From NCBI RefSeq assembly GCF_004683885.1, contig NZ_CP038440.1, forward strand, positions 2,452,001 through 2,516,000: a stretch of 64,000 nt of DNA. The letters are read 5' to 3'. Under the pieces are notes generated by a model. It did not search any database and was not told the origin of the DNA. It saw only the letters and a program-made list of their open reading frames with translations. Shown piece by piece: positions 2,837 through 44,752 of this stretch (within the stretch, counting starts at the first letter, position 1; each line of letters starts with the position of its first letter). The stretch is from Brevundimonas sp. MF30-B (GTDB lineage Bacteria; Pseudomonadota; Alphaproteobacteria; Caulobacterales; Caulobacteraceae). The position numbers and the translations under genes are program-made.

Positions 2837-2869
2837 AAAGGGGCGGCCCTCGCGGACCGCCCCTTATCT
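2837..2869. terminator. Bidirectional hairpin terminator between the bactofilin gene and prfB
   Basis: A stem of GGGGCGG with CCGCCCC is flanked by A-rich sequence on the left and TTATCTT on the right. It lies between two convergent genes and can serve both. The prfB stop codon begins at its right edge. Confidence 0.75.
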
Positions 2870-3991
2870 TATTCGGTGGTCGAGCCCCGGGTCTCGCCGA
2901 CCCGGGCCGCCAGCGCGGCGCCCATGAACTGATCCAGGTCGCCGTCCAGAACCCCTTGTGTGTCCGAGGTCTCGACCTCGGTCCGCAGGTCCTTGACCAT
3001 CTGATACGGCTGCAGGACGTAAGATCGGATTTGGTGGCCCCAGCCGATGTCGGTCTTGGCGTCAGCCAGGGCCTGCGCCGCCGCCTCGCGCTTCTGCAGC
3101 TCCAGCTCGTACAGGCGCGCCCGCAGCATCTTCCAGGCCTGTTCACGGTTCTGGTGCTGTGAACGGCCGGCCTGGCAGGCCACGACCGTATTGGTCGGGA
3201 CGTGGGTCAGACGCACCGCCGAGTCGGTCTTGTTGATGTGCTGACCGCCGGCGCCCGACGCGCGATAGGTGTCGGTGCGCACGTCCGACGGGTTGATGTC
3301 GATCTCGATGGCGTCGTCCACCACCGGCGACACCCCGATCGAGGCGAAGGAGGTGTGGCGCTTGGCCGCCGCGTCATAGGGGCTGATGCGCACCAGCCGG
3401 TGCACCCCGGACTCCGACTTCAGCCAGCCGTAGGCGTTGGGGCCCTTGACCTGGATGGTGGCGGACTTGATGCCGGCCTGTTCGCCGCCCTCCTCCGCCT
3501 CCAGCTCGACCTCGTAGCCGTGCGCCTTGGCCCAGCGCGAATACATGCGCAGCAGCATGCCGGCCCAGTCGTTGGACTCGGTGCCGCCGGCGCCGGAGTT
3601 CACTTCCAAATAGGCGTCGTTGCCGTCGGCCTCGCCGGACAGCAAGGCTTCCAGTTCGGCGCGGGCGGCGCGTTCCTTGATGGCCTTGAGGTCGGCGCGC
3701 GCGCCTTCCAGCGCATCCTCGTCGCCCTCTTCATCAGCCATTTCGGCCAGCATGACGCCGTCCTCGAGGCCCTGCTCCATCGCCTTGACGGCATTGATCT
3801 GGGCTTCCAGGCGCGAGCGATCTCTCGAGACGGCCTGGGCTTCGTCGGGGTTGTCCCACAGGGTCGGATCCTCGACCCGGGCGTTCAGCTCATCGAGCTT
3901 TCTGACAGCGACATCCCAGTCAAAGACGCCTCCTGAGCAGAGCGACGCTCTGCTCGATGTCGGCCTTCATGGCCTCGACATCCGGTCTCAT
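2869..3991 (-). CDS. prfB: Peptide chain release factor 2, with programmed +1 frameshift
   Basis: RF2 recognises UAA and UGA and triggers peptide release. The main frame (from about 3921 down to 2869) contains the SPF-like anticodon region and the catalytic GGQ motif ([10 protein letters not shown]). The first 23 codons, from ATG at 3991, end in an in-frame TGA at 3922-3920. They encode a peptide beginning [14 protein letters not shown] that joins the main frame only by a +1 shift on CTT-TGA-C. An AGGAGG stimulator sits three bases before the CTT. This is the autoregulatory site known from E. coli prfB, where low RF2 favours shifting. It is not a sequencing error. It reads in the same direction as mrcA upstream, with a GIY-YIG element between them. 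Confidence 0.97.
3919..3934 (-). promoter_or_regulatory. prfB programmed +1 frameshift site
   Basis: Read on the minus strand, AGGAGG (3934-3929), a three-base spacer (CGT), then CTT TGA C (3925-3919). The order and spacing match the classical RF2 recoding signal: internal Shine-Dalgarno, slippery CUU and poorly read UGA. Ribosomes shifting +1 continue with GAC TGG GAT in the RF2 frame. Confidence 0.95.
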
Positions 3992-4069: not shown

Positions 4070-4108
4070 TGCCGTCATCGTCGGGCTCGACCCGACGATC
4101 CAGCCGCA
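4070..4108 (+). repeat. Hairpin repeat, copy A (right-facing)
   Basis: A 9-bp perfect stem, ATCGTCGGG/CCCGACGAT (4077-4085 and 4091-4099), closes a CTCGA loop. It has a TGCCGTC flank to the left and CCAGCCGCA to the right. Copy B at 4449-4487 is its inverted partner with identical flanks. Confidence 0.85.
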
Positions 4109-4114
4109 CGGCCC

Positions 4115-4423
4115 TCAATCGTACCAACCCTCGGACAGATCGCGCCACTCGGGGTTCAGGTCTTCGATCAGCTTCAGCTTCCAGTCCCGCAGCCATCGTT
4201 TGATCGCCCGTTCGCGACGAATGGCCTCGACCATGTGCGCGTGGCGTTCGTACCAGACCAAGCGCGAGCAACCGTAAGCGCTGGTGAAGCCCTTAAATGT
4301 CTTCTGCTTGTGCTGAACGACGCGCGCGGGCAGGTCGCTGCTGACCCCGACGTACAGTGTTCCGTTGCGCCCGCTGGCCACGATGTAGGCCGCGATAAAG
4401 CTGTCGTCCGTCAGTCGCGCCAT
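4115..4423 (-). CDS. Small GIY-YIG nuclease (UvrC-domain family)
   Basis: A 102-residue single-domain protein of the GIY-YIG endonuclease superfamily. The first motif is AYI (12-14) and the second YVG (24-26). The catalytic arginine is probably R34 in LPARVVQH, the metal-binding glutamate E71 in RRERAIK, and the conserved asparagine N90 in DLNPEW. Stand-alone proteins of this type are common in alphaproteobacteria and their function is unknown. I chose ATG 4423 (MARLTDDSF) rather than an upstream in-frame ATG at 4480, because the 19 extra residues would be encoded by the flanking hairpin repeat. No partner gene is evident. The terminal repeats suggest it acts on them. Confidence 0.85.
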   Translation of the reverse strand: MARLTDDSFIAAYIVASGRNGTLYVGVSSDLPARVVQHKQKTFKGFTSAYGCSRLVWYERHAHMVEAIRRERAIKRWLRDWKLKLIEDLNPEWRDLSEGWYD

Positions 4424-4448
4424 GCCGCCTCCGCCGTTCGAGCGTGAC

Positions 4449-4487
4449 TGCGGCTGGATGCTCGGGTCAAGCCCGAGCATGACGGCA
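4449..4487 (-). repeat. Hairpin repeat, copy B (inverted partner of copy A)
   Basis: A 9-bp stem, ATGCTCGGG/CCCGAGCAT, around a 5-nt loop. Its reverse complement matches the copy at 4070-4108 over 39 nt, with both flanks conserved. The CG-to-GC swap in one stem arm is matched by the reciprocal swap in the other arm. Confidence 0.85.
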
Positions 4488-4494
4488 AACTCCC

Positions 4495-6930
4495 TTAGTA
4501 CAGGCCCGTCAGATCCTCGGCCGGCTGTTTGCGCGGCGGCGGCGGGGTCACCGGAGGCGGGGGTCCGGCGGCGGCGGGCGGCGGCGTCTGGCCGGCGGCC
4601 TCAGCCTCGCGACGGATGACGTCGTAGTAGTTCTGCGGTCCGACCGGCTCGGCCGGACGCGGCGGCGGCGCCTGGCGCTCGGTGCCGGGGCGGAAGGCTT
4701 CCTCGATGCCGTTGACGGTCCTGAACACGGCGTTGCGGGGCCGCACGAACGGCCGCGCGGGCCGTTCCTTCAGCGCCGTCTGCATGAACTCGTTGAAGAT
4801 CGGCACAGCCGTCGAGGCCCCGGCCTCGCCCCCGCCCAGCGAGCGGTTGTCGTCGTAGCCGACGAAGACCCCGACCACGATGTCCGTGGTGAAGCCCACG
4901 AACCAGGCTGACCGATATTCATTGGTCGTGCCGGTCTTGCCGCCGACCCAGCGGCCCAGGCCGCGCGCGCTGGCGGCGGTGCCGCGCTGAACCACGCCTT
5001 CCAGCATGGAGCTGAGCTGATAGGCGGTGATGGGGTCCAGAACCTGCTCGCCGCGATCCGGCAGACGCGGCGACTCCTGGCCCGAGAAGCCGCGCCCGCA
5101 GTCGCGGCACTGACGCCGGTCCGCGCGATAGATGGTCTCGCCATTCCGGTCCTGTACCAGCTCGATCAGATAGGGATCGATCCGGCGGCCGCCGTTGACG
5201 AAGGCGGCGTAGGCGGCGGTCAGCTGGTAGGGCGTGGTCTCCCCCGCTCCAAGCGACACCGACAGATTGGGCGTCAGGCCGGGCAGGCCCATTTTCTCGG
5301 ACTGAGCCACGATCTTGTCCATGCCCACCGCCTGCGCCAGGCGCACGGTCATGACGTTGCGCGACAGTTCCAGCCCGCGCCGCAGGGTCTGCGGGCCATA
5401 GTATTGCCGGCTGTAGTTCTCGGGCGTCCACCGACGCCCGCCCGGCCCGCCGGGGAAGCTGATCGGCGCGTCCAGCACGATCGAGGCCGGCGTGAAATCG
5501 CCTTCCAGGGCGGTGGCGTAGACGAAGGGCTTGTAGGCCGAGCCCGGCTGGCGCCGCGCCTGGGTGGCGCGGTTGAAACTGCTGATGGCGTAGGAATAGC
5601 CGCCGACCATGGCCAGCACCCGGCCGGTCTGAGGCTCGATGGCCACCAGGGCGCCGTTGACGGCCGGCACCTGTTTCAACGCGAACTGGCCGCCGGAGGG
5701 CTCGACGAAGATCAGGTCGCCGCGCTCCAGCCTCCGCCGGGCGTTGGCCCAGGCGGCGTCCGCGCTGACCAGGGCCCCTTCACGGTCCGTGCGCGCCGTG
5801 CGGATGCGCACGGTGTTGCCCGACACGCTTTCGACGGCGGCGGCCTCCCAGGTGCGGCGTTCGGCCGGGACGGTGCGGCGAAGCGCGGCCTGCTGCCAGC
5901 CGTCTTCGAACTCGGTCTTGCCCCAGGGTCCGCGCCATCCGTGACGACGGTCGTAGTTCTCAAGGCCCCGCATCAGGGCGTCGCGCGCCGCCGACTGAAG
6001 ATCCGGGTCCAGCGTGGTGCGCATGTAATAGCCGCCGCCGTTGACCTCCGGCCGGCCGAAAAGGCCGATGGCGCGCCGCCGCGCTTCCTCGACGAAGAAG
6101 TCCGCGTCGGCGTAGGCGGCCCGTCGCGGCGCATCCAGGGTCTGCAGCGGCCGGGCCAGCGCGGTTTCAAGATCGGGGCGCGACAGCCAGCGATTGTCCG
6201 CCATCTCGTTCAGCACCCAGTCGCGCCGGCCCTTGGCCGCCCCCGGGTGGCGTTTGGGGTGATAGTTGTTCGGGCCCTTAGGCAGGGCCGCCAGGAACGC
6301 CGCCTCGTCCGGGGTCAGCTGATTCAGCGACTTGCCGAAATAGTTGAAGGCCGCCGACGCCACGCCGTAGGAGCGGTAGCCTAGGAAAATTTCGTTCAGA
6401 TACAGTTCGAGGATCTGCTCCTTGCTCAGAACCGTCTCCAGACGGCTGGTCAGGATAGCTTCCTTGAGTTTGCGGTTCAGGCTCGTCTCGTTGGTCAGCA
6501 GAACGTTCTTGGCGACCTGCTGGCTGATGGTCGATCCACCCTCGAGCCTTCGGCCCGAGGCGAGGTTGAAGACATTGTTGATCATGGCCCGGCCCAGGCC
6601 CGAAACGTCGATCCCGCCGTGACCGAAGAAGTTGCTGTCCTCGGCCGCCAGGAAGGCATGGACCACGGTCTCGGGAATCTGGTCGTAGGTGACATAGATG
6701 CGGCGCTCGTCGGAGAACTCGCCGATCAGGGTGCCGTCGCCGGCATAGACGCGCGTCGCCGTCGGCGGACGATAGTCCGCCAGCTCGGAGGTGTCGGGCA
6801 GGTCATGGAAGACCCAGGCCGCATAGACGGCCACGATCACGCCAGCCAGGGCGATCGCGCCCAATAAGCCGACGCCCGCCATGACCAACCAGCGTTCCGC
6901 TATCTTCACTACCGACTCCGCGCGACGCAT
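4495..6930 (-). CDS. mrcA: Penicillin-binding protein 1A (bifunctional transglycosylase/transpeptidase)
   Basis: Polymerises and cross-links peptidoglycan at the outer face of the inner membrane. It has 811 residues, with one N-terminal membrane anchor at about 14-40. The GT51 glycosyltransferase domain (about 60-235) shows EDSNFFGHGG with catalytic E97 and GGSTISQQVAKN at 131-142. The transpeptidase domain shows SAYK with S464/K467, SRN at 523-525 and KTGT at 665-668. The C-terminus is Pro-rich and ends DLTGLY. Linkage of mrcA to prfB is common in alphaproteobacteria, and here a hairpin-bounded nuclease gene lies between them. Confidence 0.97.
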   Translation of the reverse strand: MRRAESVVKIAERWLVMAGVGLLGAIALAGVIVAVYAAWVFHDLPDTSELADYRPPTATRVYAGDGTLIGEFSDERRIYVTYDQIPETVVHAFLAAEDSNFFGHGGIDVSGLGRAMINNVFNLASGRRLEGGSTISQQVAKNVLLTNETSLNRKLKEAILTSRLETVLSKEQILELYLNEIFLGYRSYGVASAAFNYFGKSLNQLTPDEAAFLAALPKGPNNYHPKRHPGAAKGRRDWVLNEMADNRWLSRPDLETALARPLQTLDAPRRAAYADADFFVEEARRRAIGLFGRPEVNGGGYYMRTTLDPDLQSAARDALMRGLENYDRRHGWRGPWGKTEFEDGWQQAALRRTVPAERRTWEAAAVESVSGNTVRIRTARTDREGALVSADAAWANARRRLERGDLIFVEPSGGQFALKQVPAVNGALVAIEPQTGRVLAMVGGYSYAISSFNRATQARRQPGSAYKPFVYATALEGDFTPASIVLDAPISFPGGPGGRRWTPENYSRQYYGPQTLRRGLELSRNVMTVRLAQAVGMDKIVAQSEKMGLPGLTPNLSVSLGAGETTPYQLTAAYAAFVNGGRRIDPYLIELVQDRNGETIYRADRRQCRDCGRGFSGQESPRLPDRGEQVLDPITAYQLSSMLEGVVQRGTAASARGLGRWVGGKTGTTNEYRSAWFVGFTTDIVVGVFVGYDDNRSLGGGEAGASTAVPIFNEFMQTALKERPARPFVRPRNAVFRTVNGIEEAFRPGTERQAPPPRPAEPVGPQNYYDVIRREAEAAGQTPPPAAAGPPPPVTPPPPRKQPAEDLTGLY

Positions 6931-44664: not shown

Positions 44665-44695
44665 CCCGCTCACCCCCGCGAAGGCGGGGGTCCAG
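44665..44695 (+). repeat. Inverted hairpin repeat, copy C
   Basis: A CACCCCCGC/GCGGGGGT-type stem around a short GAAG-containing loop, flanked by CCCGCT on the left and CCAG on the right. The copy at 44722-44752 is its inverted partner. Confidence 0.8.
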
Positions 44696-44721
44696 ACAAT
44701 CCAAGTCGAGACCGGCGCCGA

Positions 44722-44752
44722 CTGGATCCCCGCCTTCGCGGGGATGAGCGGG
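44722..44752 (-). repeat. Inverted hairpin repeat, copy D (partner of copy C)
   Basis: The reverse complement matches copy C over 31 bases with only two differences, a C/G versus T/A pair at opposing stem positions. The hairpin is therefore preserved. The outer TCA...TCCAG frame is shared with copies A and B near 4.1-4.5 kb. Confidence 0.8.

Follow-up and report, generated by a model that had tools for sequence, protein, structure and literature searches.

A 102-residue GIY-YIG nuclease gene lying between mrcA and prfB in Brevundimonas sp. MF30-B is enclosed by two inverted hairpins that we assign to the CGTC REPs, and a partnership between GIY-YIG genes and these repeats is well supported. 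The support comprises physical linkage, orientation, cognate type-specificity, co-occurrence across genomes, and presence or absence at orthologous sites, and from it we infer that the nuclease cleaves and mobilizes the repeats. The whole probably constitutes a REPIN-like system in which the GIY-YIG nuclease takes the role that RAYT has elsewhere. A sequence-only reading of the window (the 64,000-nt stretch analyzed here) had suggested the same, namely a REP-like unit that has a GIY-YIG nuclease where a RAYT would be expected and that inserted between two conserved neighbors.

A GIY-YIG gene enclosed by two hairpin arms

The features of the locus are as follows:

2869..3991, minus strand: prfB (release factor 2, with programmed frameshift), flanking context outside the unit
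4074..4104, plus strand: CGTC REP arm, downstream end of the GIY-YIG unit, type ATCG (R1 model E = 4.7e-11, arm in the training set)
4115..4423, minus strand: GIY-YIG nuclease gene, 102 aa, inside the REP dimer (Pfam PF01541, E = 4.5e-12; alignment; AlphaFold)
4428..4432, minus strand: Shine-Dalgarno-like GGAGG for the ATG at 4423 (read from the sequence)
4453..4483, minus strand: CGTC REP arm, upstream end of the GIY-YIG unit, type ATGC (R1 model E = 9.5e-12, arm in the training set)
4495..6930, minus strand: mrcA (penicillin-binding protein 1A), flanking context outside the unit

The complete inverted-repeat arms (4070-4108 and 4449-4487, 39 nt each) are inverted copies identical at 34 of 39 positions and, as the earlier reading had described, they enclose this one gene in the 340 nt between them. 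Each contains CCGTCAT and folds into a hairpin with a fully paired 9-bp stem and a 5-nt loop (4077-4099 and 4458-4480), the downstream arm combining a GTC tag, the stem ATCGTCGGG/CCCGACGAT, the loop CTCGA, and a CCA tail, and the upstream arm a GTC tag, the stem ATGCTCGGG/CCCGAGCAT, the loop CTTGA, and a CCA tail. Their five differences are again those first noticed, namely CG/GC on the 5' side of the stem, GC/CG on its 3' side, and a single loop base, the four stem changes being reciprocal swaps that preserve pairing. R1 is a covariance model of the window repeat built from 42 sequences; since both window arms are among these, its E-values check fit and are not independent detections. The Rfam search returned no family at the window hairpins. 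Hairpins in general were discarded as a signal, with 19 8-bp hairpins in the window against 14-23 in Markov-shuffled sequence, and the signal is thus the specific motif. The start of prfB (3900-3991) carries the RF2 programmed-frameshift signal AGGAGG...CTTTGAC, which is kept in the congeners inspected.

The hairpins belong to a published repeat superfamily

The CGTC REPs, which include Neisseria dRS3 and the rickettsial RPE-4/RPE-6, were defined by Di Nocera, De Gregorio and Rocco (2013; PMC3733652), who described four families. They are characterized by an unpaired CGTC (or TGTC/CCTC) tag at one end, an 8-9-bp stem usually starting with AT, a 4-5-nt loop, a CCA tail, head-to-head dimers, and an alphaproteobacterial bias (PMC3733652). 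They were reported without a dedicated transposase, the enzyme being suggested to have been lost or never dedicated; no tyrosine-type transposase was flanked by them, and other classes were associated only fortuitously (PMC3733652). The window arms fit this description in their tags, 9-bp AT-starting stems (ATCGTCGGG and ATGCTCGGG), 5-nt loops, CCA tails, and dimeric layout. By their sequence they are thus CGTC REPs, and the hairpin itself is therefore not undescribed. The earlier suggestion of an undescribed system accordingly falls for the hairpin and stands for its link to a GIY-YIG partner, of which we found no precedent for REPs or REPINs among open PMC papers, to which the search was limited. 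Whereas the published CGTC REPs appear enzyme-less, those studied here are strongly associated with GIY-YIG genes.

The 2.80-Mb genome of the organism contains 16 REP copies detected by R1, arranged as seven head-to-head dimers and two singles, and so shows the repeated, mainly dimeric occurrence typical of the superfamily. Six of the seven dimers are gene-less (81-114 nt) and the seventh is the GIY-YIG unit. Three of the gene-less dimers (D3, 1120396-1120481; D5, 1966724-1966809; D6, 2590512-2590597) each pair one ATCG-type with one ATGC-type arm, which ties the GIY-YIG unit to gene-less dimers of its own genome. Given this recurrence, the CG/GC swap is best read as two end types occurring as a pair. 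Compensatory mutation at the mrcA-prfB locus, which the sequence-only reading had taken as a sign of a selected structure, is not borne out and gives way to this reading.

The window holds a second dimer:

44669..44748 (arms 44669-44696, plus strand, and 44721-44748, minus strand): gene-less head-to-head CGTC REP dimer, 4-nt-loop type (R2 model E = 1e-8 and 8.8e-10)

Since the genome encodes no close type-B GIY-YIG protein, this dimer appears to be orphaned or a relic.

A stand-alone single-domain nuclease

The 102-aa product consists of a single GIY-YIG domain (Pfam GIY-YIG, PF01541) with no other domain, and no NCBIfam model fits it. It shows the GIY/YIG motifs and the catalytic Y, R, H, E, and N of the superfamily (Y13, Y24, G26, R34, H38, E71, and N90), and the active-site residues are invariant in an alignment with 20 relatives. 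An AlphaFold model predicts a compact, confident fold (pLDDT 91.5), whose nearest solved relatives are UPF0213, Slx1, and UvrC. The best match in both sequence and fold is UPF0213 (e.g., BH0048, PDB 1zg2), likewise a stand-alone single-domain GIY-YIG protein of about 95 aa; we are not aware of any UPF0213 protein linked to REPs. Penelope-like elements and GIY-YIG homing endonucleases also place a GIY-YIG nuclease in the service of a mobile element, but the window unit is devoid of a reverse transcriptase, an intron, or a DNA-binding extension. A 2006 survey of the GIY-YIG superfamily does not mention palindromes.

CGTC REPs cluster around GIY-YIG genes across species

Using only a protein pattern, blind to hairpins, we gathered 80 loci of GIY-YIG relatives in a library covering 84,980 species; they represent alpha-, beta-, and gammaproteobacteria, Nitrospira, and a small number of other taxa. 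The density of CGTC REPs there (at most one mismatch) falls from 5.2/kb in the 150 bp nearest the gene to 1.13/kb at 150-300 bp and to about 0.04/kb from 300 bp out to 10 kb, and reversed or complemented flanks yield approximately none. The tolerance was fixed at one mismatch because two mismatches gave 3.1/kb beside genes in the flank-reversed control. A REP is present within 300 bp of 55 of the 70 GIY-YIG genes with full flanks as against 24 of 631 other ORFs on the same contigs, and REPs flank both sides of 35 of these 70 genes as against 1 of the 631 ORFs. No REP occurs within 300 bp of uvrC in the genome of Brevundimonas sp. MF30-B. A motif-free test, which takes the strongest inverted repeat shared by the 200-bp flanks on either side, likewise separates GIY-YIG genes (56/75) from the comparison set (7/285), and several genes negative for the strict motif turn out to have longer-loop variants that are still of the CGTC...CCAG form.

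Such CGTC...CCAG-related inverted repeats with long or structured loops flank the genes at seven loci (L056, L028, L042, L046, L112, L120, and L130) and extend beyond the four published families, some of them (e.g., L056, L028, and L042) lying outside the published loop lengths. Three further loci (L155, L137, and L159) have two arm types per dimer around the gene (e.g., a CCTAGG arm and a CCTCGGG arm), and the left and right ends of these units may be distinct, as in ordinary transposons. A Neisseria gonorrhoeae record from the plasmid set (L211) contains a GIY-YIG homolog, unannotated in the gene table, within a dense array of dRS3-type REPs.

Co-occurrence across the family

The gene is patchily distributed, being found in 87 of 149 family genomes, which agrees with the earlier expectation of something other than plain vertical descent at the mrcA-prfB site. 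The hairpins, as also anticipated, are not equally frequent without it: at least ten REPs with a 5-nt loop (counts at the top of the scale meaning at least 48 per genome) occur in 64 of the 87 genomes with the gene and in 7 of the 62 without, an odds ratio of 22 in a statistic that ignores phylogeny. Type-B REPs are similarly found in 28 of 36 genomes encoding a close type-B protein and in 30 of 113 lacking one, with a control pattern found in none. Among nine GIY-YIG genomes without a 5-nt-loop REP, five have a type-B protein and type-B REPs instead.

Some observations go against the preferred explanation. Canonical REPs accompany only 4 of the 26 members of the window gene's own clade (any inverted repeat, about half), and REP-rich genomes without a detectable GIY-YIG gene exist (e.g., G059, G088, and G111; G058 has abundant type-B REPs and no close type-B protein). 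The latter, together with the mostly intergenic location of REPs, would be expected if another mobilizer, a RAYT or some other transposase, spread the repeats and GIY-YIG genes merely happened to lie in REP-rich intergenic DNA. We regard this as highly improbable: even when only intergenic sequence is counted, REP density is 5.3/kb near the GIY-YIG gene and 0.15/kb over the rest of the contigs concerned, and nuclease and hairpin types match within genomes (see below). RAYT was rejected as the mobilizer, Y1/RAYT (PF01797) being absent from the genome of Brevundimonas sp. MF30-B and present in 24 of the 149 family genomes with a weak association with REPs; the lack of a tyrosine-type transposase flanked by CGTC REPs in the published survey (PMC3733652) points the same way.

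Nuclease types tend to carry cognate hairpin types

Several Caulobacteraceae have three to six distinct GIY-YIG paralogs per genome, each gene type mostly in single copy, with each type of paralog usually accompanied by a particular type of hairpin. Proteins of the xTYIxASRRNGTLYTGSTDDL form adjoin CTCATCCC-type hairpins with a 4-nt loop, those with PFIATYIxASRPxGVLYxGMTSNLYER mostly adjoin GTCATCCTCGGGCTTGACCCGAGGATCG hairpins, and those with xRDGxIxxYMMANRxHG adjoin dimers with a CCTAGGCCTTGTGCCTAGG or CCTCGGGCTTGTCCCGAGG core. When any perfect hairpin of at least 7 bp within 300 bp of the gene is considered, with no requirement for the REP motif, protein and hairpin similarity correlate at r = 0.349, as against 0.037 ± 0.039 when hairpins are shuffled among paralogs within genomes (0 of 2000 shuffles reach the observed value). 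For pairs without detectable flank homology r is 0.310, as against 0.031 ± 0.043, the largest of 1000 shuffles giving 0.203; tblastx flank homology, being permissive (847 of 1494 pairs), served only to define this strict subset. Of the two type-B genes in genome G097, one adjoins a ...CCGGCGGACGCCGG... REP and the other a ...CCCCGCGGAGGCGGGG... REP, and the dispersed type-B REPs of this genome, among those listed, are of the same two subtypes.

An alternative is a domesticated partnership without transposition, wherein the nuclease processes or resolves REP hairpins, either in the control of cruciform or branched DNA or in autoregulation via the hairpins at its own gene, and the REPs spread by other means. 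The kinship of the fold to the structure-specific and repair nucleases Slx1 and UvrC, besides UPF0213, the mostly single-copy state of each gene type, and the lack of detectable hairpins in some clade members are compatible with such a role. The patchy distribution of the gene, presence or absence at orthologous sites, and the amplification of type-specific dimers, one gene-bearing and many gene-less, suggest a mobile family instead, and we consider domestication unlikely, though it ranks first among the alternatives, followed by linked, homing-like spread (see below) and then by another mobilizer.

Presence and absence at orthologous sites

None of 29 congeneric genomes has a GIY-YIG gene in the mrcA-prfB gap, which measures 77-225 bp in 27 of them as against 506 bp here; the relatives thus have the empty sites that had been predicted, though without base-exact boundaries. 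The relatives inspected have a GC-rich terminator hairpin after mrcA that is missing here (4484-4497), with the REP hairpin in its place, and the REP starts 14 nt past the first base of the mrcA stop codon. Two genomes (L191 and L192) have long mrcA-prfB gaps (553 and 1423 nt, respectively) with no GIY-YIG motif, and the gap of another congener (L195) contains an independent gene-less CGTC REP dimer of a different type.

A comparable polymorphism is seen on related Sphingobium plasmids (86-100% local identity), of which seven have the unit at the fnrL site and four lack it. Two of the four unit-less plasmids have in its stead one hybrid palindrome that joins the outer half of one arm to that of the other. 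This palindrome, GTCACCCCGGGTCAAGCCCGGGGTGAC, which is tagged at each end (around position 1025 of L213, Sphingobium TomTYG64, and also in L212), is scar-like, although slippage could also have produced it. As a recurrent excision scar, the double-tagged palindrome is convincing only on the Sphingobium plasmids and was for this reason left out of the evidence. No base-exact insertion boundary or target duplication could be fixed at the mrcA-prfB, Sphingobium, or Shinella sites, the latter two being too diverged, and this counts against the preferred explanation.

The resemblance of the hybrid palindrome to a deletion scar of the unit bears on a further alternative, namely that gene and hairpins are only inherited in linkage, spreading jointly in a homing-like manner by nuclease-induced gene conversion into related sites, with gene-less dimers arising by deletion or recombination rather than by mobilization in trans. 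Homing endonucleases such as I-TevI share the GIY-YIG fold, and gene and hairpins could be passed on as one block without enzymatic recognition. However, homing requires a cognate allele, and the tens of gene-less REPs at many sites per genome are difficult to accommodate, such that we give this alternative little credence.

A probable REPIN-like system with a GIY-YIG partner

The layout of one gene-bearing copy beside gene-less dimers, the type matching, and the patchiness are all to be expected of a REPIN-like system that has its own dedicated nuclease. We propose that the GIY-YIG unit would be the gene-bearing member of such a family, with CGTC-tagged hairpins in head-to-head pairs as its mobile ends and the nuclease encoded between or beside them as the dedicated partner, much as the Y1 transposase RAYT is for GTAG REPs. 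The hairpin pair might extrude either from single-stranded DNA at the replication fork or in cruciform form; after recognizing the stem, loop, tag, and tail of its own type, the nuclease would nick at the hairpin base, whereupon the dimer could be released or copied and inserted elsewhere, with the gene-less dimers being non-autonomous copies mobilized in trans. Against this proposal, the genomes compared did not reveal any transposition event.

The closest parallel is the REPIN/RAYT systems, in which GTAG REPs are coupled to a Y1 HUH transposase (Bertels and Rainey, 2011; PMC3116915). As in these, the unit is an inverted hairpin doublet, the gene is flanked by its own REP type, which matches the enzyme type, and genomes have distinct, mostly single-copy enzymes alongside many gene-less doublets. 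Unlike in these, the tag is CGTC and not GTAG, and the partner has the unrelated GIY-YIG fold rather than the Y1 HUH fold. MITEs and their parent transposons similarly juxtapose short gene-less inverted-repeat elements with a gene-bearing copy, but here the ends are complete hairpins, the enzyme is neither a DDE nor a HUH transposase, and no target-site duplication was found at the compared sites, where the empty sites are not base-exact. To our knowledge, GIY-YIG transposase chemistry has not been assigned to any bacterial transposon.

The CGTC REPs are widespread short repeats of alphaproteobacteria that have until now been orphaned, and this enzyme family is probably the missing partner that spreads them. 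On balance, we lean toward the broader view that stand-alone GIY-YIG nucleases of about 100 aa are the transposases of hairpin-ended elements and account for the CGTC REP superfamily, Neisseria dRS3 among its members, both in Proteobacteria and beyond. With a specific, small, and purifiable nuclease as the partner, the origin of CGTC REPs becomes directly testable. If mobilization by the nuclease holds true, REPIN-like partnerships would have arisen at least twice with unrelated nucleases, and GIY-YIG would be added to the known transposase chemistries.
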